64,000 bases of DNA, from positions 62,001 to 126,000 of the IMG/VR virus record IMGVR_UViG_3300031576_000002. One strand, written 5' to 3'. This stretch comes from a virus. Shown here in pieces: positions 22,738-37,834 of the stretch. Position 1 is the first letter of the stretch, and each line of letters starts with the position of its first letter. The position numbers were made by a program, and so were the translations under genes. The notes under the pieces were generated by a model. That model worked only from the letters and a program-made list of their open reading frames with translations, was not told the DNA's origin and did not search any database.

Positions 22738-23703
22738 TTACAGGACAAGCGTAACTTCACGAGGGGCTACAGTATCAGCCGTTGTTGCAGCAAACTCCAC
22801 GGCTGGATCAAAGCGCTCCCACGCCTTTCTGATTTTCCAGTAGCGCCTGAAGTATTCTATCCATTTCGGCCTGTTGTGGTTTGTAGCCATGTGGCACGCA
22901 ACGCACGAAGAGATAAGATTTCGGCTGAGGCCCTTACCCGTCTTACCGTAGTTATGATGCTTGTCGTAGTCCACATGGTGTACACTCAGTTTGACCTTAC
23001 AGCCCTTCTGGTGAATTCCGCAGATCTGGCAAGTGTACCAGTCCCGCTTTCTAATCCTTCGTCGAAGCCGTTTGCTGAATTCAGGAGGGTGTGGAAGAAA
23101 CGATGTTCCGCCTTTCCAGTTATAGTGGTTTGGACCTGAGAATCGTTCGATCATCTCAGGACGATTGAAGGTCTTTTTCAGACTGGCTGTGATCTTAGCC
23201 TGATGCTCTGGCGTCTTCTTTCTACCTTTGTTCCAACTCCCCCAGCCAGGTGGAGGCTTCCAAGGATTCGCAGCTCGCGCCGCTCGAATCTTCTGGCGTG
23301 TCTCTTCCGAGAGGTGGCGCCCTTTGAAGTAAGAAGTAGCCCTGCCACGAGTGTGCGCTAGCTTCTGCACTTCAATTTGGCTACGCCTTTTTATTCCGTG
23401 AATCTTCAGCCATCTGGATACAGGAGTAACGCTGCATCCGATTTCTTCGGCAATCTCTGCAACCGACATCTCTGCGTACTTTGCTTTCATCCAGCTCTTA
23501 TCTTTGAGGGTGGCGTAGGGAAGGCGTAGCTTTACAGTCGAAGGCATTCCCATCGGACGTACTGGAATTTTGGCCTTCCGCAAGCTTCTTAGAACTAGGG
23601 GCTTACTTACGCCGAGGCGGTCTGCCACTGCCTGCGCTGGCAGGCACTCCACCACATATAGTTGCTTCAAGGCTAGCGGGTCGAGATTGATGCGAGCCGG
23701 CAT
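22738..23703 (-). CDS. HNH homing endonuclease with helix-turn-helix arm (1)
   Basis: 321 residues, beginning MPARINLDPLALKQLY. N-terminal half holds helix-turn-helix units (PAQAVADRLGVSKPLVLRSL; AEIAEEIGCSVTPVSRWL). C-terminal third is an HNH nuclease: CQICG, then LSVHHVDYDKHHN with the catalytic His pair, then CVACH, giving CxxC/CxxC zinc ligands. Paralogous to the next gene upstream (same start and same HNH core). Inserted between sheath and tube genes, the classic site for free-standing homing nucleases that target a neighbouring conserved gene. Confidence 0.9.
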   Translation of the reverse strand: MPARINLDPLALKQLYVVECLPAQAVADRLGVSKPLVLRSLRKAKIPVRPMGMPSTVKLRLPYATLKDKSWMKAKYAEMSVAEIAEEIGCSVTPVSRWLKIHGIKRRSQIEVQKLAHTRGRATSYFKGRHLSEETRQKIRAARAANPWKPPPGWGSWNKGRKKTPEHQAKITASLKKTFNRPEMIERFSGPNHYNWKGGTSFLPHPPEFSKRLRRRIRKRDWYTCQICGIHQKGCKVKLSVHHVDYDKHHNYGKTGKGLSRNLISSCVACHMATNHNRPKWIEYFRRYWKIRKAWERFDPAVEFAATTADTVAPREVTLVL

Positions 23704-23759: not shown

Positions 23760-24629
23760 CTATTCGAAGGAGGCGGCTGTTGCAGCAAATTCCACGGCAG
23801 GGTTGAAGTGTTCCCAGGCTGTCCTAATCTTCCAGTAACGCCTGAAGTATTTGACCCACTTTTTTCTATCCGTGTTGGTTCGGACGTGGCAAGGTATACA
23901 CAGTGTTGTAAGATTCTCGGGCACGTTATTATGCTTATCGTAATCTACACGGTGAACGCTCAGGCGTGCCTTACAGTCTTTCTGCTGCACACAACATATC
24001 TGGCATATCTGCCCATCCCGTGCCCGAATTTCTCGCCGTAACTCTGCGCTAAAAGTTCTCGGATATGGGTACTTTGCAATTCCGCCCTGCCAATTGTGAT
24101 TGAGCGGACCCGATATATCAGGACGAAATTTTCCCTTACCCTGTGCAACTCGACCTTGCTTAAAAGTTAAGCGGACAGCCTCGCTCCGGCTACGAAGGGG
24201 TATCCCAAATTTTTGAAATGACGCTACTACAACGCTCTGGGTACAGCCGAGCTTTGTAGCAATATCAGAAGTTGCTAAAGTCTTGTACTGCTCACGCAAC
24301 CACGCGGGATCTTGAAGCTCTGGGTACTGCGTTGGACCGTAGATTGTAGCTTTATGGAATTTGAGAACTCGCACGATAGTGGGACGGGTTACTCCAATCT
24401 TCTGTGCAACTTGTTCAGCAGAATGGCATTTCTCGTAAAGGTGTAGGATCCGATCGTGGTCCAGACTGTTCCAGATACTTGTAGGATGCCGCTCGATGCC
24501 CGAGCTAACCATAAACGTCCAGACTTTGTACTTCGAGACGCCCAAGTTTTTGGCGATCTGAAGGCACGTCATGCCCTGCTTTCGCAGGTGCTTGACGCGC
24601 TCTGGGTCGAGGTCTATACGCGCTGGCAT
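23760..24629 (-). CDS. HNH homing endonuclease with helix-turn-helix arm (2)
   Basis: 289 residues from the ATG at 24629 (MPARIDLDPERVKHL), chosen because the paralogous gene downstream starts the same way; a longer frame to 24677 would run through the upstream hairpin. Three helix-turn-helix units (LQIAKNLGVSKYKVW, AEQVAQKIGVTRPTIV, SDIATKLGCTQSVVV) precede an HNH domain with CQICC, LSVHRVDYDKHNN and CIPCH. The second histidine of the usual HH pair is Arg here (HRVD), while the paralog has HHVD. The last residues ASFE match the end of the tail sheath. Confidence 0.88.
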   Translation of the reverse strand: MPARIDLDPERVKHLRKQGMTCLQIAKNLGVSKYKVWTFMVSSGIERHPTSIWNSLDHDRILHLYEKCHSAEQVAQKIGVTRPTIVRVLKFHKATIYGPTQYPELQDPAWLREQYKTLATSDIATKLGCTQSVVVASFQKFGIPLRSRSEAVRLTFKQGRVAQGKGKFRPDISGPLNHNWQGGIAKYPYPRTFSAELRREIRARDGQICQICCVQQKDCKARLSVHRVDYDKHNNVPENLTTLCIPCHVRTNTDRKKWVKYFRRYWKIRTAWEHFNPAVEFAATAASFE

Positions 24630-24660
24630 GCTACAGTTCGAGGCGGGCTCAGACTGTAGC
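24630..24660 (-). promoter_or_regulatory. Hairpin abutting the HNH (2) start codon
   Basis: GCTACAGT (24630-24637) pairs perfectly with ACTGTAGC (24653-24660), and inner GAG pairs with CTC around GCGGG. The helix ends exactly at the ATG as for HNH (1). There is no U-run, so translation control is more likely than termination. Confidence 0.65.
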
Positions 24661-24686
24661 ACACTCCAACTAGCCACGCCAGCAGC

Positions 24687-26318
24687 TTACTCGAACGAAG
24701 CCACAAATGCGAAATTCACGTCCAGGAAACGAAGCGGGAATGCAGGCTTGACTCTCGCCCGCACAAAGATCCTGCGCGGCTCGATCGTGTCCTGCTGCGC
24801 CTGCACGTCCCGGAACTCCGCCAGGATTCGATCCTGGACAAGAGTCTGAAGAATGGACGTGACCGAGGTCTCGATCGCACCTTCGGTGTCTGCCGTGATC
24901 TTGGTATTTCGGTAGAGATCGAACAGGCGCAGGCGCACGAACTGCCGGAGATAGTCCGCCGTGTCCTGAACGCTCAGGTCTTCCGTGAACACATTGGTCG
25001 TGTCCACGGTAATCGGAATCGCCATGATCGTGCCGAGGTTGGCGATATCGGCACGGCGCCGCTTGAAGGGAATGACGCCGTTTCGCCGAAGCTCTCGGGC
25101 CTCGTCGAGGATCCAGCTATCGTAAAGCGTGACGCCCGAAATGGGGGCGAAGTTGTTCGGCGCTCCGATGAACGATCCCGCCAGGAGTCCGCCGGTTGCA
25201 GCCATCAAGAAGTTCACGTTCTGATTGCTACCCAGCGTAGTCGCTGAAGCCGTCGAGCCCGAGATCGTACCTACCTGGATCGCTACCGCAGATCGCACGG
25301 TATGGCCGTCCAGATCGCCCGGAGGACCCTTCACGCCGGGAAGTGCGATTCGGTTTCCGGCGGTCTGGTTCTCATCGAACGGATTCGCCTGCTCCTTGAA
25401 CGACTCGGCAATCGCCGTCATCAAGGTAAGATCCGTACCTCTGGGGTAGCTGCCCAGCAGGGTACGCTCCCGGCCCTCGTCAGGGGCAGAAGCGGACAGG
25501 GCGTGGATGAAGAACCGGCTATTGTTGTCCTCGCCGAAAGTCCAGTCAGCTCTGTCCGGGTCACTGCCGGGATCCATGGGCACCAGCCAGAGCTTGAACT
25601 CCTCCACCTTGTTGATCTTCTGCACGGCAATGTCGTAGCTGGGCTCCATCTCTAGTGTCCCGCCTATGGGAGGAACAGTAGTAGGGTTAAGCGGATCCCC
25701 CCAGTCCAGTGCGGTCACGCCCGGCAAAGAACCATTGCCGGTAACGGAAGGATGGAAGTCGAGCTGGAGAATGACCACACCAGGCGCGTTGTTCTTGAAC
25801 GCCAACCGGCCCGCCGCCACCAGCGGATTGACCTCGCGGTCGTCAGCGAGAACCGAGGAGAAGAACAGCTCGCTGCCCCGCTCTCGAATCATCAACTGCT
25901 CGTCGAGATACAGCAGCGGCTCGAACGCGCTTGCGGGAATCTCCACGGTGTAGTTGAGGAAATACTTGGTTCCTACCGGGGGCTCTGCACCTCCCGGTGC
26001 CCATTCGACCCGTGCGGGAACGGTCGAGCTGGGAGAAGGCGTGATGGTGTAGTCCGTGCCCTCGGAGAACTGCGTCGCTCCCGGCGCTCTGCCGACACCC
26101 CAGACAGTCACGACAGGGCTGGTACTCGGCTCCGCGCGCAGATCGTCGTAAGAAGTCGTGGAGCTACGGGTCAGGCCGAGATTGCGTTCCTTGATGACCT
26201 CGTAGTCGCCCCGGCCAATAATGGCGGGAAAACGCTCGAAACCCGCGGGCGCGATGATGCCCTGGTTCTCGATCGTCACTACGATGCCAGGAAGACGTTC
26301 GCCAGTAGAGAGCGGCAT
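24687..26318 (-). CDS. Tail sheath protein
   Basis: 543 residues. The N-terminal segment (VTIENQGIIAPAGFERFPAI) and the C-terminal third (ETSVTSILQTLVQDRILAEF ... RARVKPAFPLRFLDVNFAFV) match the conserved pattern of contractile sheaths, where the C-terminal domain forms the inner contacts with the tube and neighbouring sheath subunits. A clear GGAGG precedes the ATG. Next in order are two HNH genes and the tube, so the usual sheath-tube pair is interrupted. Confidence 0.92.
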   Translation of the reverse strand: MPLSTGERLPGIVVTIENQGIIAPAGFERFPAIIGRGDYEVIKERNLGLTRSSTTSYDDLRAEPSTSPVVTVWGVGRAPGATQFSEGTDYTITPSPSSTVPARVEWAPGGAEPPVGTKYFLNYTVEIPASAFEPLLYLDEQLMIRERGSELFFSSVLADDREVNPLVAAGRLAFKNNAPGVVILQLDFHPSVTGNGSLPGVTALDWGDPLNPTTVPPIGGTLEMEPSYDIAVQKINKVEEFKLWLVPMDPGSDPDRADWTFGEDNNSRFFIHALSASAPDEGRERTLLGSYPRGTDLTLMTAIAESFKEQANPFDENQTAGNRIALPGVKGPPGDLDGHTVRSAVAIQVGTISGSTASATTLGSNQNVNFLMAATGGLLAGSFIGAPNNFAPISGVTLYDSWILDEARELRRNGVIPFKRRRADIANLGTIMAIPITVDTTNVFTEDLSVQDTADYLRQFVRLRLFDLYRNTKITADTEGAIETSVTSILQTLVQDRILAEFRDVQAQQDTIEPRRIFVRARVKPAFPLRFLDVNFAFVASFE

Positions 26319-26394: not shown

Positions 26395-27126
26395 TCAAGG
26401 GTCGTAGAGAGTTGCAGAAAAGAACGCGGCTTCGATCTCATCCAGGCGGACGAGACGATCTTCCCACTCGCCTCTCACCGGAATCGTAAGCTCGGTCTGG
26501 TAGAGACGAAAGTCGGTTGCTACATCCTCTGTCGAGGACTGCGAGCCAAAGCTGGGAGCGTCTGTAATCACGAAGCCGTACTTCTTCATCAGGAGCGCTT
26601 TGAATACGGGATGCGCGGTAAAGTACCCCGCCATGTCCGCTAGATTGTCCGCTTCTTCTCTGGTTCTAGCGACCGCGGTAAAGCTCAGCACGAACTCCGC
26701 CGCACCTCCGAAAACAGCTTCATTGGGGTCAAGAGATTCGTCGATCTCCATGAAGCCGCCGAACGATCCACTGCCGAGCATGGAGCGGATCTCGTTGCCG
26801 TCTGGATTGGTCGGAATCCTGGGAGCTTGTACAGTGGTGAAGCTCAACTCTTTCATCGGCCCCGTAACGGCATTGATGAGCACGCAGGGATACTCCCGGT
26901 TCCTGAGATCAATCCCTGCCAGCCCTCTTGTCTGCCCCGTAGCTTGGTCGAGTCCGGCTGCTCTCGCTTCCCACTCTTCGTAGGTTCTGGCAGTCGGCTT
27001 TCGTGAGAACTTGATCGCTTCTCTGCCATCCGAGAGACGAATCACATCTCGATCAACCAGGTCGAAGAGGCGCCGAAAGTAATCGACGAATCCGTGCTTG
27101 ATTCCGCGTGTGAGCCGAAAGTACAT
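26395..27126 (-). CDS. Neck/tail-completion protein
   Basis: 243 residues, mixed alpha/beta, no named motif. It precedes the sheath by 76 bases, where contractile phages encode tail terminator or neck proteins (T4 gp14/gp15-like). The central part has a beta pattern (EFVLSFTAVARTREEADNLA) and the C-terminus LYQTELTIPVRGEWE. The call is from position. Confidence 0.55.
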   Translation of the reverse strand: MYFRLTRGIKHGFVDYFRRLFDLVDRDVIRLSDGREAIKFSRKPTARTYEEWEARAAGLDQATGQTRGLAGIDLRNREYPCVLINAVTGPMKELSFTTVQAPRIPTNPDGNEIRSMLGSGSFGGFMEIDESLDPNEAVFGGAAEFVLSFTAVARTREEADNLADMAGYFTAHPVFKALLMKKYGFVITDAPSFGSQSSTEDVATDFRLYQTELTIPVRGEWEDRLVRLDEIEAAFFSATLYDP

Positions 27127-27771: not shown

Positions 27772-28262
27772 CAGAATGCCCAGCCTGCGGAAAATACAAC
27801 GGAGTTGATCCCGCCATTCGGTGCATCAAGGCCGGCATTCGATAGATGGTGGATTCGAGTTCCAAGCTCCAGTTCCTCGATTACACGCACGCTCGCGCCG
27901 GCTTGCAGCAGGAACATGACCTTGTCCGCCTGCCCACGCGCCCCATCGAAATCCGTATAGCCCGCGCCTGCATCTGCTCTTGCTGTAAAGCGGCTGTACT
28001 GGACACGACCTCCGCCGTACAGGAACGCGCCCCAGCCGTGGTACGGCGCATAGACACCCAAACCTTGAAGGCCGATCGCGCCCTTGAGGTACTCGAAAAG
28101 TACAGGAGTTCGACTCTCTACTTCGACCAGACCGAGGCGTGAATCAACCAGGTTCCCGTTTCGCGTACCGCCCAAGGGAACGCCGAATCCCCAGCCTGCT
28201 TCGATAGAAGGCTGCGCTTGCGCCGCAGTTGCAAGCAGCAGGAGGAAGGCCAGCGTTCGCAT
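27771..28262 (-). CDS. PagL-like outer-membrane lipid A deacylase
   Basis: 163 residues from the ATG at 28262, which overlaps the upstream stop (TGATG); a GTG one codon earlier is the alternative. Sec signal peptide MRTLAFLLLLATAAQA then Gln. The mature part alternates as an 8-stranded beta-barrel and ends in Phe, as outer-membrane proteins do. The segment HLSNAGLDAPNGGIN has the PagL catalytic pair His139 and Ser141; the position of the third PagL residue (Glu140 in Pseudomonas aeruginosa) is Asn153 here. PagL removes the 3-O-acyl chain of lipid A. In a phage it would alter the host outer membrane. Confidence 0.8.
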   Translation of the reverse strand: MRTLAFLLLLATAAQAQPSIEAGWGFGVPLGGTRNGNLVDSRLGLVEVESRTPVLFEYLKGAIGLQGLGVYAPYHGWGAFLYGGGRVQYSRFTARADAGAGYTDFDGARGQADKVMFLLQAGASVRVIEELELGTRIHHLSNAGLDAPNGGINSVVFSAGWAF

Positions 28263-29155
28263 CACGTTCGCACGACTGGAATCTTAGTTCTCGGATCGTT
28301 CTCTTCTAGCAGGACTGCCGTGAATTTCTGGCTTTTCAAGCGGGACTGGCCGTTGGCGAATCCAAGCCCCCAGTCCAGCTCGTTCATCACGACTTCGTAG
28401 TATGCGTTGTTCGCAGCGCGAACGAGCAGATCGTGTTCGAGGATCACGGGCGTGAAAGGCGGCACGGAGGTCCACCATTCGATTCTACTTGCGCGCGTCA
28501 TACCCGCAGGCTGCACGGAGAGATCACCGGGTTCGGCAGGAAGCGCCAGTGGAATGATGTGCGGCGCGGTAACGCCGCGGAAGAGGCGCTTGGGGTCCAG
28601 GAATTGCCGGTAGCCTCGCAGACTCGTCTCCTTAGAGGGGAAGTTGTCTACGACCGGCTGACGGCTGTGGAAGTCAGTAGCAGGAGAAATCCAACGGTAC
28701 AGGACGTGAACGGGGTCCGTGCCGTTGTGGGGCGGAGCATTGAGGATGAGGTAGACCACTCCTGGCAGGGGGTTATCACTCGCGTCTACACGCCTTGCTT
28801 GAAAGTCGAGAGAGAACTGAGCTGCATTCGGTGAGAAGGTATCCTTGTCCTGAATCTGAGTTAGCTCGATCGCACCGAAGCTGGTCGTGAGCGTCGCCTC
28901 GAACCCTTCCGAGTCGGGGAATTCTTCCGGCGGATCTCGCTCTTCGTGCCAGATGACGGTACGCGGCAATCTTACGTCAGGGTCGAGATCATAGTTTCCG
29001 AGCGTCTTCACCACTCGATCGGAGTCGTAGCGCCGCTGGAGAAGATAGAACGGCTCGCCTCCAAACTGGAGGTACTCGTCCTGGTGCGCGATGACAATGT
29101 CAAGCGCACCCGTGGCGTCAAGGACGTGCCAGGGTTCGACCCAGAAGCGACTCAT
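28262..29155 (-). CDS. Virion structural protein, unknown family
   Basis: 297 residues, beta-rich, starting MSRFWVEPWHVLDATGALDI. It overlaps the upstream membrane protein by 4 bases. No motif recognised; sits among neck and host-envelope genes. A virion role is inferred from its composition and place. Confidence 0.5.
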   Translation of the reverse strand: MSRFWVEPWHVLDATGALDIVIAHQDEYLQFGGEPFYLLQRRYDSDRVVKTLGNYDLDPDVRLPRTVIWHEERDPPEEFPDSEGFEATLTTSFGAIELTQIQDKDTFSPNAAQFSLDFQARRVDASDNPLPGVVYLILNAPPHNGTDPVHVLYRWISPATDFHSRQPVVDNFPSKETSLRGYRQFLDPKRLFRGVTAPHIIPLALPAEPGDLSVQPAGMTRASRIEWWTSVPPFTPVILEHDLLVRAANNAYYEVVMNELDWGLGFANGQSRLKSQKFTAVLLEENDPRTKIPVVRT

Positions 29156-33160: not shown

Positions 33161-33734
33161 GAAGCCTTCCCCACAAATCGTCAAAGGCATACTGCATTTT
33201 AAGCTCTCGGCCTTTTTGAAGAAAGGGCTGCAAACTTTCCCAGACACTCTCTTTGCTCGCATCTTCTGCCAAAGCCTTGAGCAGTTCCGTAGCGTCTCCG
33301 TAGTCACCCGCTCCACGCCAAGCCCCCAGCTTCAGAGCTAGCAACTGTTCTGTAGAGGGCTGAGAAGCTGTGATCCCTTCTGATTGTACCAGAACAGGAC
33401 CCTCGGATAGAACATCGACATAGCCCTTGGCCGCATCATTGAGCCAGTCACGGGGCCAGTTGTTCTCTGCGGCTACCGCCTCTGCCCATTTCCGCACGAG
33501 CTGTGCATTGGGCGATAGAATGACGACGTCAACATCTTTGGTGGACTCTCGGGTGCGGTAGCCAAGAACCATAGCAGCGCCACCAAGAACGACCAAATGG
33601 ATCTGTTGACCATCGGCATGGGCAAGTTCGCCGAGTCGGGTAAGGCCGGATTGAATATCGGAAAAGTTGAAGGAGGAGTCTGCGGGAGACGCGGAAAGGC
33701 AGAGGCGACGGAGGATAGCTGTGAGGGGGCTCAT
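33147..33734 (-). CDS. Nucleotidyltransferase-fold protein (AbiEii/MNT-like) with SPLT leader
   Basis: 195 residues from the ATG at 33734, which overlaps the stop of the homing endonuclease (ATGA). Leader MSPLTAILRRLCLSA is followed by a nucleotidyltransferase signature: VVLGGAAMVLGYRTRESTKD and VDVVIL, the GG plus D-x-D arrangement of AbiEii/MNT-type enzymes. These transfer a nucleotide to RNA or protein, often as toxins. Here it could act on host targets after injection or counter defence (inference). Confidence 0.75.
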   Translation of the reverse strand: MSPLTAILRRLCLSASPADSSFNFSDIQSGLTRLGELAHADGQQIHLVVLGGAAMVLGYRTRESTKDVDVVILSPNAQLVRKWAEAVAAENNWPRDWLNDAAKGYVDVLSEGPVLVQSEGITASQPSTEQLLALKLGAWRGAGDYGDATELLKALAEDASKESVWESLQPFLQKGRELKMQYAFDDLWGRLHEPT

Positions 33735-34936
33735 GCTGCGGCCTGGACGAGACGGGGTATGCCGAGGAAGGTGCGGAGGCGCTTGCGGACTAGCTTGCGG
33801 CCTTCCTTGGACTTCAGTTCGCACTCCCACACAATGAGCAATTTCCATCCTGCATCAGCTAGAGCTTCTGCCTTTGCTTTATCACGTAGTACGGCGGCGA
33901 TCTGCGGAACGTACTTAGGAGTGTACGGCTGATGCCATTCATTACCAACAGCGTGTGCATGCCAAAAGCATCCATTGCACTCTATCGCTACTTTAGTTTG
34001 TAAGAGCGCGATGTCGAGGGCTCGCTTCTTACCACGCTGGTAGCGATGGTCAAAAGTGTAATCAGTTTGAAACTCTACCCCCAGTTTGCGCAAAATTCTC
34101 TGGACACGGCGTTCAGGTAGCGAATCCTTGACTGGCTGGCAACGGCGTAACGGAATACCGAACTTCTTCACTCGGTCGGCTATGGTACTCGTGGTGCAAT
34201 GAAAGCATCGAGCAATTTCCGGAATTGTCAGCTTTTGAGCTGTATAGAGCCCTTCTAGCGACTCTTTTGTAATATCGGGCCTTCGCTCACGATCCGGCCA
34301 GTTACCAGCTTCGATTGTTCTTTTAGCCCAAATCTTCGTCGCCGTTACTGTATCGCGCCTTTTTACCCCACTTCTTTCCAGGCGGTCAATAATAGTAGTT
34401 GTATCAACTTTAAGTTCTGCTGCAAGACTCGAAGCGCTCCTGCCGTCCTTGTATTGAACGACTATGTACGCATCATCAAGCTCTTTAGCCGCAAAACTCT
34501 TCCTAACGCTTACCCCTTGTGCAGACATGTAACTGCGTACGGTAAGACCGTCAAGCCCGGTACGGTTAGCTATCTCTCTGATACTATGCCCTGCCTTGTA
34601 GAGAGACACTATTTCAGAAGACTTTTCTGCGTACTTCCTCCATTCGTACTTGTAGACTCCCGCAAGAGTCAAACGATTTATTACGATTTTCTCTGTTGTT
34701 TCTACTTCGCGTGCAATCGCTCGCGGACCTTTTCCCGTCTGGTAGAGCTGTAAGATACGTTCAGCATCGACCTCAACTCTTCCAGGGCACTTTTCGATGA
34801 TAACCCCCGCTTCGCGCAGTCTGGACTTGACGAGCTTTCTGGAAACTCCTAAAGAAGCCGCCAAAGCGCTTAGGCTTTCCCGCGCCTTGTAGCGTGCAAC
34901 TAGCACGGCCGAGTTGAGATGGATTTGGCGTTTCAT
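33731..34936 (-). CDS. Vsr-like homing endonuclease with five helix-turn-helix units
   Basis: 401 residues from the ATG at 34936 (MKRQIHLNSAVLVARYK); an in-frame start 40 codons earlier lies inside the intein-bearing gene and is rejected. Five tandem helix-turn-helix units of ~60 residues (for example LSALAASLGVSRKLVKSRL, IPEIARCFHCTTSTIADRV) precede a Vsr/EDxHD-type nuclease: TDYTFDHRYQ, RALDIALLQTKVAIECNGCF and WHAH. Vsr-like homing nucleases are known beside inteins and split genes. Its stop overlaps the next gene. Located 35 bases after the gene with two mini-inteins. Confidence 0.88.
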   Translation of the reverse strand: MKRQIHLNSAVLVARYKARESLSALAASLGVSRKLVKSRLREAGVIIEKCPGRVEVDAERILQLYQTGKGPRAIAREVETTEKIVINRLTLAGVYKYEWRKYAEKSSEIVSLYKAGHSIREIANRTGLDGLTVRSYMSAQGVSVRKSFAAKELDDAYIVVQYKDGRSASSLAAELKVDTTTIIDRLERSGVKRRDTVTATKIWAKRTIEAGNWPDRERRPDITKESLEGLYTAQKLTIPEIARCFHCTTSTIADRVKKFGIPLRRCQPVKDSLPERRVQRILRKLGVEFQTDYTFDHRYQRGKKRALDIALLQTKVAIECNGCFWHAHAVGNEWHQPYTPKYVPQIAAVLRDKAKAEALADAGWKLLIVWECELKSKEGRKLVRKRLRTFLGIPRLVQAAA

Positions 34937-34970: not shown

Positions 34971-36812
34971 TCAAGGCGTAAATCCGCTTCCTGCAAGTAC
35001 CCCGCTAGGCCCGCCGACCGACAAGCCGTACCTACTGAAAAACCCCGACGGAACACTACTATTACAGCACATGATCCCGTCCGCTACAAAGTTCTCGAAC
35101 CTGCTCCCAGGCACAGAAATATCGTACATACGTGGGCTCTTCATAGGCTCGATAGATACGATCTTAGCGCGACAGACTTCGGTATCCAAGAGATGCCCTT
35201 GCGCCCTTGGAGGAGCTACGACAATCTCATCTCCCACTTGAAGGTCTCGACCTTTTACCCGTAGAAGGCTGTTCAAGCCGAACCGAAATACCGAGTGGTC
35301 TCCCGTGAGAGAAATCGATGTCCTGCTTGACAGACGCACCCGATAGCAGTCCTTTCCCGCGCAATCATGAGAGAGCCACGCCTGGACTTTTTTCCAGGCA
35401 GGACGCCCCGTCTTTGTATCGACCGCAAGCACTTCGGGAGATTTGACTTCAGCGGCAAAATCGCCAATTGGAACTGTCTGGATCTTTCCGCCGTCCCTCA
35501 CAATCAACTCGTGTTCCGCGCCAACAGAAAAGAAGCGGCCAATCGAGTTGTGAGCCATGACGCCCGAAGCCACGAAGTTCTCTACTCCAGGCACGGACAG
35601 GTCGTACATCTTAGCTACGTGAACAGGTTCTACTGCCTTGACACGGTCAATCCGTGAAGTGCTGGTTTCCAGACGGTGCCGAAGATCGCAAGTGACAATC
35701 TCACTACCTTCTTTCAGGGCTCTTCCTTGTACCGGCTCCAGCCGGTTTCCCTGCACCTCAAACAAGGAGTGATCCCCTGTAATCGTAATGGACTTTCCAC
35801 CGGCTGTCTTGATCTTGTAGCAGTCTTTGGCAGAAGTGTCGTGCTCCCACCACTGGGTAACCGGATGCCATCCTACCTCACCGCTAGCGGGATGGATCGC
35901 CAAGACTTCAGAGCCTTCTCGTGGGTTCGCACAAGCCTCTCCAATCGTAACCGGATAGGTTCGTTTACCCTCCCGTATAAGTAATTCTTCTTCAGTAGAT
36001 ATACTGAAGGAATACTGCATCTGGACTAACACCGATCCTTGACTTCTAAACTGCTGCTTGAACCGGATCAGCCAGTCTTTGAAGTCCGCGAACAGGGGAA
36101 GTCCGCTCACCTGAGCAATCTTGCTCAGGTGGTCAATGGTGAGCGCGTTGCCGCCGAGGCTGTAGACGTAGTCCGTGTCCACGGCGTAGATGCCCTGGCT
36201 CTCCAGGGCTACCAGGGTAGCGGCCTGGATGAGAACCCAGAGATGCTGGTCTGGGAAGTTGCCGACCCCGAACCCGGTATAGGGCGGCACCATGTTGATG
36301 ACGCCCGCTCCGAGGTCGAGGTAGACGGACATCATCGCGTCGGAGTAGCCGTAGGTGACGCCTCCCCGCGACGTAATGTTGGTGGACGTGAGGCTCTTGC
36401 GGCTCTTGTCCACCATCAGCCGCAGGATGGGGATGTACTTGAAGTATTTGATCGGGGCTACGCGGATCAGGTGCTGCTTCCGGATCTCCCTGGCGTTTCC
36501 AGTCCGGAAGCGGTAGAAGGCCAGGTACGTGGGGCTCTGAAGCAATGCTGAGTCAAAACCGTACTTGTACGTGCCCAATCCAAGCCGCTGGACAGCACCA
36601 CTGCCTGCCTCTGGAAACAGCAGCGTCTCGATCGCGGTCCCGCCGTCGTCCACTAGCTCGATCTTTCCCGCTTCGGGGTCGGTCGTGATGAGCTGCTCGG
36701 GAGTCGCGTTCCTGTCGAGTGGCTCGGTCGCCGCAATGAGAATGTCCTCGGCAGTGCCTTGCCTGAGCAGGACAAGCTCTTGATCGCTTCTGAGAGGCTG
36801 TGGCTGGCTCAT
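34971..36812 (-). CDS. Neck-like virion protein interrupted by two inteins
   Basis: 613 residues as read, about 304 after removal of both inteins. N-extein 1-269, a 6-residue middle extein (SIGRFF, 423-428) and C-extein 585-613. The N-extein contains YSDAMMSVYLDLGAGVINMV, PPYTGFGVGNFPDQ and DYVYSLGGNALTIDHLSKI, a pattern I associate with head-tail neck/completion proteins of large myoviruses (tentative). Splicing of both inteins is needed to make the product. A Vsr-like homing nuclease follows. Confidence 0.8.
   Translation of the reverse strand: MSQPQPLRSDQELVLLRQGTAEDILIAATEPLDRNATPEQLITTDPEAGKIELVDDGGTAIETLLFPEAGSGAVQRLGLGTYKYGFDSALLQSPTYLAFYRFRTGNAREIRKQHLIRVAPIKYFKYIPILRLMVDKSRKSLTSTNITSRGGVTYGYSDAMMSVYLDLGAGVINMVPPYTGFGVGNFPDQHLWVLIQAATLVALESQGIYAVDTDYVYSLGGNALTIDHLSKIAQVSGLPLFADFKDWLIRFKQQFRSQGSVLVQMQYSFSISTEEELLIREGKRTYPVTIGEACANPREGSEVLAIHPASGEVGWHPVTQWWEHDTSAKDCYKIKTAGGKSITITGDHSLFEVQGNRLEPVQGRALKEGSEIVTCDLRHRLETSTSRIDRVKAVEPVHVAKMYDLSVPGVENFVASGVMAHNSIGRFFSVGAEHELIVRDGGKIQTVPIGDFAAEVKSPEVLAVDTKTGRPAWKKVQAWLSHDCAGKDCYRVRLSSRTSISLTGDHSVFRFGLNSLLRVKGRDLQVGDEIVVAPPRAQGHLLDTEVCRAKIVSIEPMKSPRMYDISVPGSRFENFVADGIMCCNSSVPSGFFSRYGLSVGGPSGVLAGSGFTP
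35061..35528 (-). mobile_element. Mini-intein 2 (Hint domain, residues 429-584)
   Basis: About 156 residues from Ser429 to Asn584. Block A SVGAEHELIVRDGG, block B SISLTGDHSVF with T503 and H506, block F MYDISVPGSRFENFVADGIM, ending CCN before Ser585. The penultimate residue is Cys rather than the usual His. Clearly paralogous to intein 1, six residues away. Also lacks an endonuclease domain. Confidence 0.83.
35547..36005 (-). mobile_element. Mini-intein 1 (Hint domain, residues 270-422)
   Basis: About 153 residues from Ser270 to Asn422. Block A reads SISTEEELLIREG, block B has SITITGDHSLF with T345 and H348, block F has MYDLSVPGVENFVASGVMAH and it ends HN followed by Ser423. All splicing residues are present. 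No DOD or HNH homing endonuclease is inserted, so it is a mini-intein dependent on another nuclease for mobility. Confidence 0.85.
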
Positions 36813-37834
36813 AGCGGGGCTTCCGGTGCGGGCTGATAGCCCTTGTGGAGAGGCTTCAGCTCATCGTAGAGAGCGTTCAAGAAATTCCACCGCGGATTTT
36901 CCCCGAGAGCCTCATCTTGAGCCTCTTGTTCCAACTTATACCAGTCTGCTTCTGCACGCTGAAACTCTTCATCACTCTCGAAGTCTTCTTCGCGGGGCAT
37001 GGAGGGTAGGCCGTAGTTAGCGTCGTAGGAGTGCCATTCTTCCCAGAACTTGTCCTGCTCTGCGTCGCGTATGACTGCGAGTTCCGCTACGGTACCACTC
37101 GCTTCAGCAAGCTCTACAAAGGCTTCCGCAACGTCTTGAACGTCGCGCGCCCGGTGGTACTTTCCGACAAGCTCTAACGCCCTACCTACGAGATGCTCCC
37201 AAACGTGACCACTTAGGTCGGGCATTACCCCATAGTCGGAGGAACCCCATTCTCTGCCTACGACTTGGTCAAAACTCCAGTCGTCAGCTTCTCCAAGCTT
37301 GGGGTGGTCAAGTGCCTGGAACCATTCCTTGAGGAGCGCCTTGTAAGGCTTCGAGGGCTCTGAGTTTGACTTTCCCTTGATCTGCGCAATGCGCGGGTTT
37401 TTGGTAGAATGTGGCGTGCTCATTTCAATCGTGACATGTGGTTGATTCTGTGGGTCGCGTAACGAATAAATGTATGAATCCTCTGCATACACCGCTTGAC
37501 AGTAGGACCCGATGCAATGTTTCATCTTGGCGCCCTCGACTTCCAGATCATTCTTGGACTTGACCTGTTGAATCGTCCATCCACTGTCCAGGCTGTAGAC
37601 GACATTCTTTTCTTCGTACTCTTCCGGCTCTTGTGTTCCTATCTCCCGGTCCCACTCACGGACCGCGTCTAGTACCTGTTCCGAGGTCATGGGCATGATG
37701 TTAGGACGTTTCTCTCTAAACCAGTCGCCAATGTGGTCAATTACTTCGGCGTCTATAGGAGGAAGATCTCGCTCCTGGATGTAGTCGTTGAACGTGGTCC
37801 ACAGCCTTTCCCGTTGTAGTTCCCGAACACCCAA
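36809..37834 (-). CDS. PcfJ-like protein
   Basis: 341 residues, TTG start. Residues ~90-140 contain EGAKMKHCIGSYCQAVYAED and YIYSLRDPQNQPHVTIEM, resembling PcfJ-like proteins, whose role is unknown. The first 27 codons overlap, in another frame, the end of the upstream gene, and the upstream frame looks like noise there, so the two may be one gene split by a frameshift. It overlaps the neck-like gene by 4 bases. Confidence 0.7.
   Translation of the reverse strand: MGVRELQRERLWTTFNDYIQERDLPPIDAEVIDHIGDWFREKRPNIMPMTSEQVLDAVREWDREIGTQEPEEYEEKNVVYSLDSGWTIQQVKSKNDLEVEGAKMKHCIGSYCQAVYAEDSYIYSLRDPQNQPHVTIEMSTPHSTKNPRIAQIKGKSNSEPSKPYKALLKEWFQALDHPKLGEADDWSFDQVVGREWGSSDYGVMPDLSGHVWEHLVGRALELVGKYHRARDVQDVAEAFVELAEASGTVAELAVIRDAEQDKFWEEWHSYDANYGLPSMPREEDFESDEEFQRAEADWYKLEQEAQDEALGENPRWNFLNALYDELKPLHKGYQPAPEAPL

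Follow-up and report, generated by a model that had tools for sequence, protein, structure and literature searches.

The 64,000-base stretch of DNA analysed here (the window) was taken from a virus record of 205,227 bases, in which it occupies positions 62001-126000. On its minus strand a single open frame of 613 codons and a stop codon encodes a probable phage neck or head-tail connector protein, which is interrupted by two mini-inteins standing six residues apart (Table 1). The intein coordinates given in a preliminary description of this DNA were exact, since Ser270 begins at 36005 and Asn584 finishes at 35061. Directly upstream of the intein gene and overlapping it by four bases lies a gene for a PcfJ-like protein (36809-37834). 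Downstream, 34 bases past the stop codon, begins an ORF for a candidate homing endonuclease, whose frame can also be read longer from a GTG at 35056 (441 aa). This ORF is the first of about 5.8 kb of extra genes which in the window lie between the intein gene and the next conserved gene.

Table 1. Parts of the intein-bearing precursor gene and the neighbouring nuclease ORF, in window coordinates
Feature	Coordinates	Strand	Evidence and remarks
Precursor gene	34971..36812	-	One open frame, 613 aa + stop codon; product probably a phage neck / head-tail connector protein, with two inteins
N-extein, aa 1-269	36006..36812	-	Alignable to intein-free homologs
Mini-intein 1, aa 270-422 (153 aa)	35547..36005	-	Ser1, TGDH, His-Asn; PF14890 57.3, TIGR01445 32.0, TIGR01443 26.3 bits
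Spacer SIGRFF, aa 423-428, read as native extein	35529..35546	-	Homolog spacing of 27-28 residues (46/46) requires SIGRFF
Mini-intein 2, aa 429-584 (156 aa)	35061..35528	-	Ser1, TGDH, Cys-Asn; PF14890 42.9, TIGR01445 25.3 bits
C-extein, aa 585-613	34974..35060	-	PSGFFSR matches conserved C-terminus of homologs; GC3 0.55
Candidate free-standing homing endonuclease	33731..34936	-	Helix-turn-helix modules and Vsr-like nuclease, 401 aa from ATG; PF03852, TIGR00632 and HTH matches, alignment to solved Vsr, GC3 0.49

The assignment of the host protein as a neck or head-tail connector protein is probable, although it is a weak call. Three homologs show weak matches to PHROG 17327 (head-tail connector), the best of which is that of L013 with E=2.4e-5. 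In the relatives, homologs of the window genes 28262-29155 and 26395-27126 and of the tail sheath gene 24687-26318 come after this gene, and such an order near the tail sheath fits a neck or connector role. A fold search of the extein homolog against the PDB gave weak matches only, which are mostly immunoglobulin-like, and a search against a viral library mainly returned phage proteins without names. The earlier designation as "neck-like" is plausible from the low PHROG match and the tail-sheath neighbourhood, though weak. An Archaeoglobales record matched by the extein query is probably the viral contig behind L060 (both have 17,766 bases) and was not considered as evidence on the host of the virus.

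Splicing residues and the predicted 304-residue protein

Pfam detects two Intein_splicing stretches within the precursor, and both inteins, when scanned separately, score above the curated cut-off of PF14890 (35.8 bits). They also exceed the curated cut-off of the NCBIfam intein_Nterm model (32.0 and 25.3 bits; cut-off 24.5 bits); the intein_Cterm model of the same collection matches intein 1 only and gave no match to intein 2. Read from the sequence, intein 1 contains Ser270, TGDH at residue 345, His421-Asn422 and Ser423 as +1 residue, and intein 2 contains Ser429, TGDH at 503, Cys583-Asn584 and Ser585. Ser270 and Ser429 were set as position 1 by the alignment of the two paralogs together with TIGR01445. 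By domain and motif both inserts are class-1 mini-inteins, and none of the Pfam nuclease models matched within their 153 and 156 residues. They are 42% identical to each other, and despite the divergence of 58% both copies have kept their splicing residues.

These profile matches and residues agree with the preliminary description, which had reported two complete Hint domains, each with Ser1, TxxH, a C-terminal Asn and a +1 Ser, and had regarded the two as paralogs that lack endonuclease domains and are separated by SIGRFF alone. Its account of the intein ends holds for the terminal Asn followed by Ser; it did not remark, however, that the residue before this Asn, usually a His and a His in intein 1, is a Cys in intein 2. 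With this Cys and no intein_Cterm match, intein 2 may be slow in splicing.

A search of INPHARED revealed a homolog of 286 aa (Rctr197k_060) in a 197-kb phage record, and a small alignment scanned against IMG/VR brought up 56 loci, none of which carries an insert at either intein site. If homologs were natively of the 613-residue form, as the preliminary description had considered, two active inteins would be refuted; the homologs, however, lack any interruption at the two sites and correspond to the 304-residue form. In an alignment of 46 distinct viral homologs, a conserved Lys and a conserved-Pro position are 27 residues apart in 29 proteins and 28 in the other 17. The window protein has 27 residues at this place when doubly spliced and 21 when residues 270-584 are excised as a block. 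Because only the doubly spliced form has the spacing of the homologs, SIGRFF is, as judged by this comparison, native extein. Its counterparts in the homologs are RLNMLL, RLQTLI or PFYTFL. A homolog profile built without the window sequence scores the doubly spliced form with 229.9 bits, the form lacking SIGRFF with 215.1 bits and the unspliced form with 210.2 bits. Opposite the +1 Ser of intein 1 the homologs have Arg, Ala or Pro and never Ser, therefore that junction needed a substitution.

In the AlphaFold2 model of the homolog L013 (mean pLDDT 83.7), a beta domain forms the N-terminus and the C-terminal part is helical. Judged by their place in the sequence, the insertion sites map to helix 263-272 of this model, and both inteins are predicted to interrupt the same C-terminal helix. 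For the stretch with the two inteins, a structure predicted from three sequences reached a pLDDT of 49 and was discarded.

The best explanation for these observations is that the 613-residue gene product would be the precursor of a neck or head-tail connector protein. The two class-1 mini-inteins (Ser first, Asn last, Ser at +1) would cut themselves out, and residues 1-269, SIGRFF and residues 585-613 would be joined to a protein of 304 residues. We estimate the probability that both inteins are functional and yield this product at about 0.85. Since both would lie within one C-terminal helix, the mature protein should form only once both are gone.

The Cys583 and the lack of an intein_Cterm match could also mean that intein 1 alone is active, with intein 2 dead or splicing slowly, and that the virion protein retains its Hint domain or undergoes cleavage at this place instead of splicing. 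We consider this improbable, because the nucleophiles, the TGDH motif and the +1 Ser of intein 2 are all intact despite the heavy divergence, the C-extein still resembles the conserved C-terminus, and a dead intein would disrupt a conserved helix in a gene that is kept by all relatives. Even more improbable is cross-splicing, in which a hybrid intein, made up of the first half of intein 1 and the second half of intein 2, would remove residues 270-584 including SIGRFF, since its 298-residue product, formed alone or alongside the 304-residue one, would be six residues short in a stretch whose length is kept in 46/46 homologs, and its score with the homolog profile is lower by about 15 bits, even though the needed residues are present at the start of intein 1 and the end of intein 2 and the halves of paralogs with 42% identity might be interchangeable.

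Distances between natural inteins

In order to place the distance of six residues, 295 archaeal genomes were surveyed with PF14890, of which 124 gave a match. Several same-frame intein pairs occur among the strongest matches, which were those listed. The tightest one examined among them belongs to a haloarchaeal MCM gene (L089) with three inteins, two of which are separated by SDDRSAMHEALEQQ, 14 residues. Close intein pairs do exist in nature, and six residues is the smallest gap found. The earlier statement that inteins are usually far apart or single thus needs to be modified, as close pairs are less rare than it implies, but the pair described here is still the tightest one found. No closer twin, tandem or double inteins were found in the open literature, which was the scope of the search.

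For the haloarchaeal MCM/CDC21 gene four nearby intein sites, a to d, are described (PMC10643990). As in the gene described here, several inteins are found near one another; however, those inteins often carry LAGLIDADG nucleases and are located in the catalytic domain of a helicase, whereas the mini-inteins described here are free of nucleases, six residues apart and part of a probable virion gene. In Pyrococcus abyssi, CDC21-1 and CDC21-2 are likewise mini-inteins that share one protein and lack nuclease domains, but the host is an archaeal helicase and the spacing is 27 or 48 residues, depending on the paper (PMC6801210, PMC8966425). The polymerase of T. kodakaraensis also contains two inteins, which in contrast are 85 residues apart and are both named homing endonucleases. 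Multiple inteins per gene are therefore already known; what is new here is a spacing of six residues, together with the sister relation of the two inteins and a candidate nuclease that may act in trans.

If both inteins splice, the known minimum distance between two natural inteins is lowered, because six residues between inteins cannot fold alone. The gene would then offer a small natural system in which to see whether paralogous inteins disturb each other, cross-splice or need an order. The pair may also supply small paired inteins for protein engineering.

Origin of the pair and the neighbouring nuclease

The two inteins match each other with 118 bits, while the best outside matches in phage records are 62 bits for intein 1 (in two joined pieces) and 37 bits for intein 2, and plasmids gave 41 bits or none. 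Within the searched collections the inteins are therefore sisters. Close relatives of the pair were found neither by back-translated scans of the viral and genome collections nor with exact degenerate patterns. Third codon positions of the two inteins are 33% identical and thus saturated, which indicates an old split. A tandem duplication would have copied the flanking extein codons, yet the extein has its native length; more probably, as far as the sequences tell, the second copy was inserted at a new Phe^Ser position. Of the two origins named in the preliminary description, a duplication or a second invasion, the unchanged extein length disfavours the first in its tandem form, and the insertion of a second copy of a sister intein is favoured.

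The GC content at third positions (GC3) is 0.80 in the N-extein and 0.52 and 0.55 in the inteins (p=3e-11 versus the N-extein). The 29-codon C-extein (p=0.0045) and the nuclease ORF are intein-like in this respect. At the first junction there is a sharp fall in silent-site GC, which remains low over the inteins, the C-extein and the Vsr-type ORF, although among the genes of the window GC3 varies from 0.45 to 0.82, so that composition alone is no proof of an import. The silent-site composition suggests that the inteins diverged elsewhere. In the simplest reading, for which these data are suggestive only, the twin arrangement was formed elsewhere, and the 3' end of the gene and the nuclease were imported along with it; both inteins would then have reached the site as one DNA tract with these two parts.

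The nuclease ORF scores 53.1 bits with TIGR00632 (whole-protein cut-off 97.85) and 25.7 bits with PF03852 (cut-off 27), both of which are below the cut-offs. In the alignment to solved Vsr structures including 1cw0, the aligned Asp and the CFWHxH motif are kept, and several HTH models match over residues 37-305 of the 441-aa form. The protein thus combines a Vsr-type core with tethered DNA-binding modules. Relatives of the ORF were not detected by tblastn in the fetched stretches of intein-free loci, nor were relatives of the whole gene in viral contigs; the phage records contain relatives of its nuclease domain only.

An in-place tandem duplication in this phage lineage, with the nearby nuclease as an unrelated hitchhiker, is the rival that concerns the origin alone and not the splicing. 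It would account for the fact that the inteins are by far mutual closest relatives, and free-standing nucleases are common in phages; two of the HNH type adjoin the tail sheath gene of this very genome. We nevertheless regard this as rather unlikely, because of the native extein length and since the intein GC3 has not shifted to the value of the N-extein although the third positions are saturated.

We tentatively prefer a two-intein mobile cassette, for which the odds are still short of even. By collaborative homing the twin mini-inteins would travel with the 3' end of the host gene and with the Vsr-type endonuclease gene; the nuclease would mobilise both inteins in trans by cutting the empty extein site, and one repair would install both. 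The proposed link between inteins and nuclease comes from one genome. In so-called fractured gene systems, split inteins reportedly occur with the coding region of a Vsr-like homing endonuclease. The locus described here resembles these in that its inteins adjoin the coding region of a Vsr-like nuclease equipped with DNA-binding modules; it differs in that the inteins are contiguous and not split, and that the nuclease is a separate gene behind the host gene. From phages, introns are described that home in collaboration with adjacent free-standing nucleases (PMC10448857), and the EDxHD nuclease family is treated in PMC3943268; I-Bth0305I and the EDxHD Vsr-like homing endonucleases are cited in both papers. 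The presence of a nuclease next to the pair offers a way to test whether one endonuclease can move two inteins together. In haloarchaea, by contrast, interference between neighbouring nuclease-bearing inteins was reported (PMC10643990).

The gene family contains a further intein. The homolog L065:5902-8031 has a single intein at a third site, DTDIPNY^SAQG. It shares the host gene family and the +1 Ser with the window pair, but it is single, starts with Cys1, carries a LAGLIDADG domain and is located at another site. The gene family therefore has at least three intein insertion sites and is a repeated target. Neither this third site nor the Vsr-type ORF was mentioned in the preliminary description.

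Counting the twin pair, the virus record contains four inteins. One is located in its RecA (L004, G000:C1:50648-51310) and shows a weak HNH endonuclease match. Another one, of the LAGLIDADG type, is found in a probable portal protein (L006, G000:C1:22123-22965), whose function was read from the sequence with no family match. Two related HTH-HNH endonuclease genes (22738-23703 and 23760-24677) are arranged in tandem directly downstream of the tail sheath gene, with a GC3 of about 0.55 compared to 0.74 in the sheath gene.
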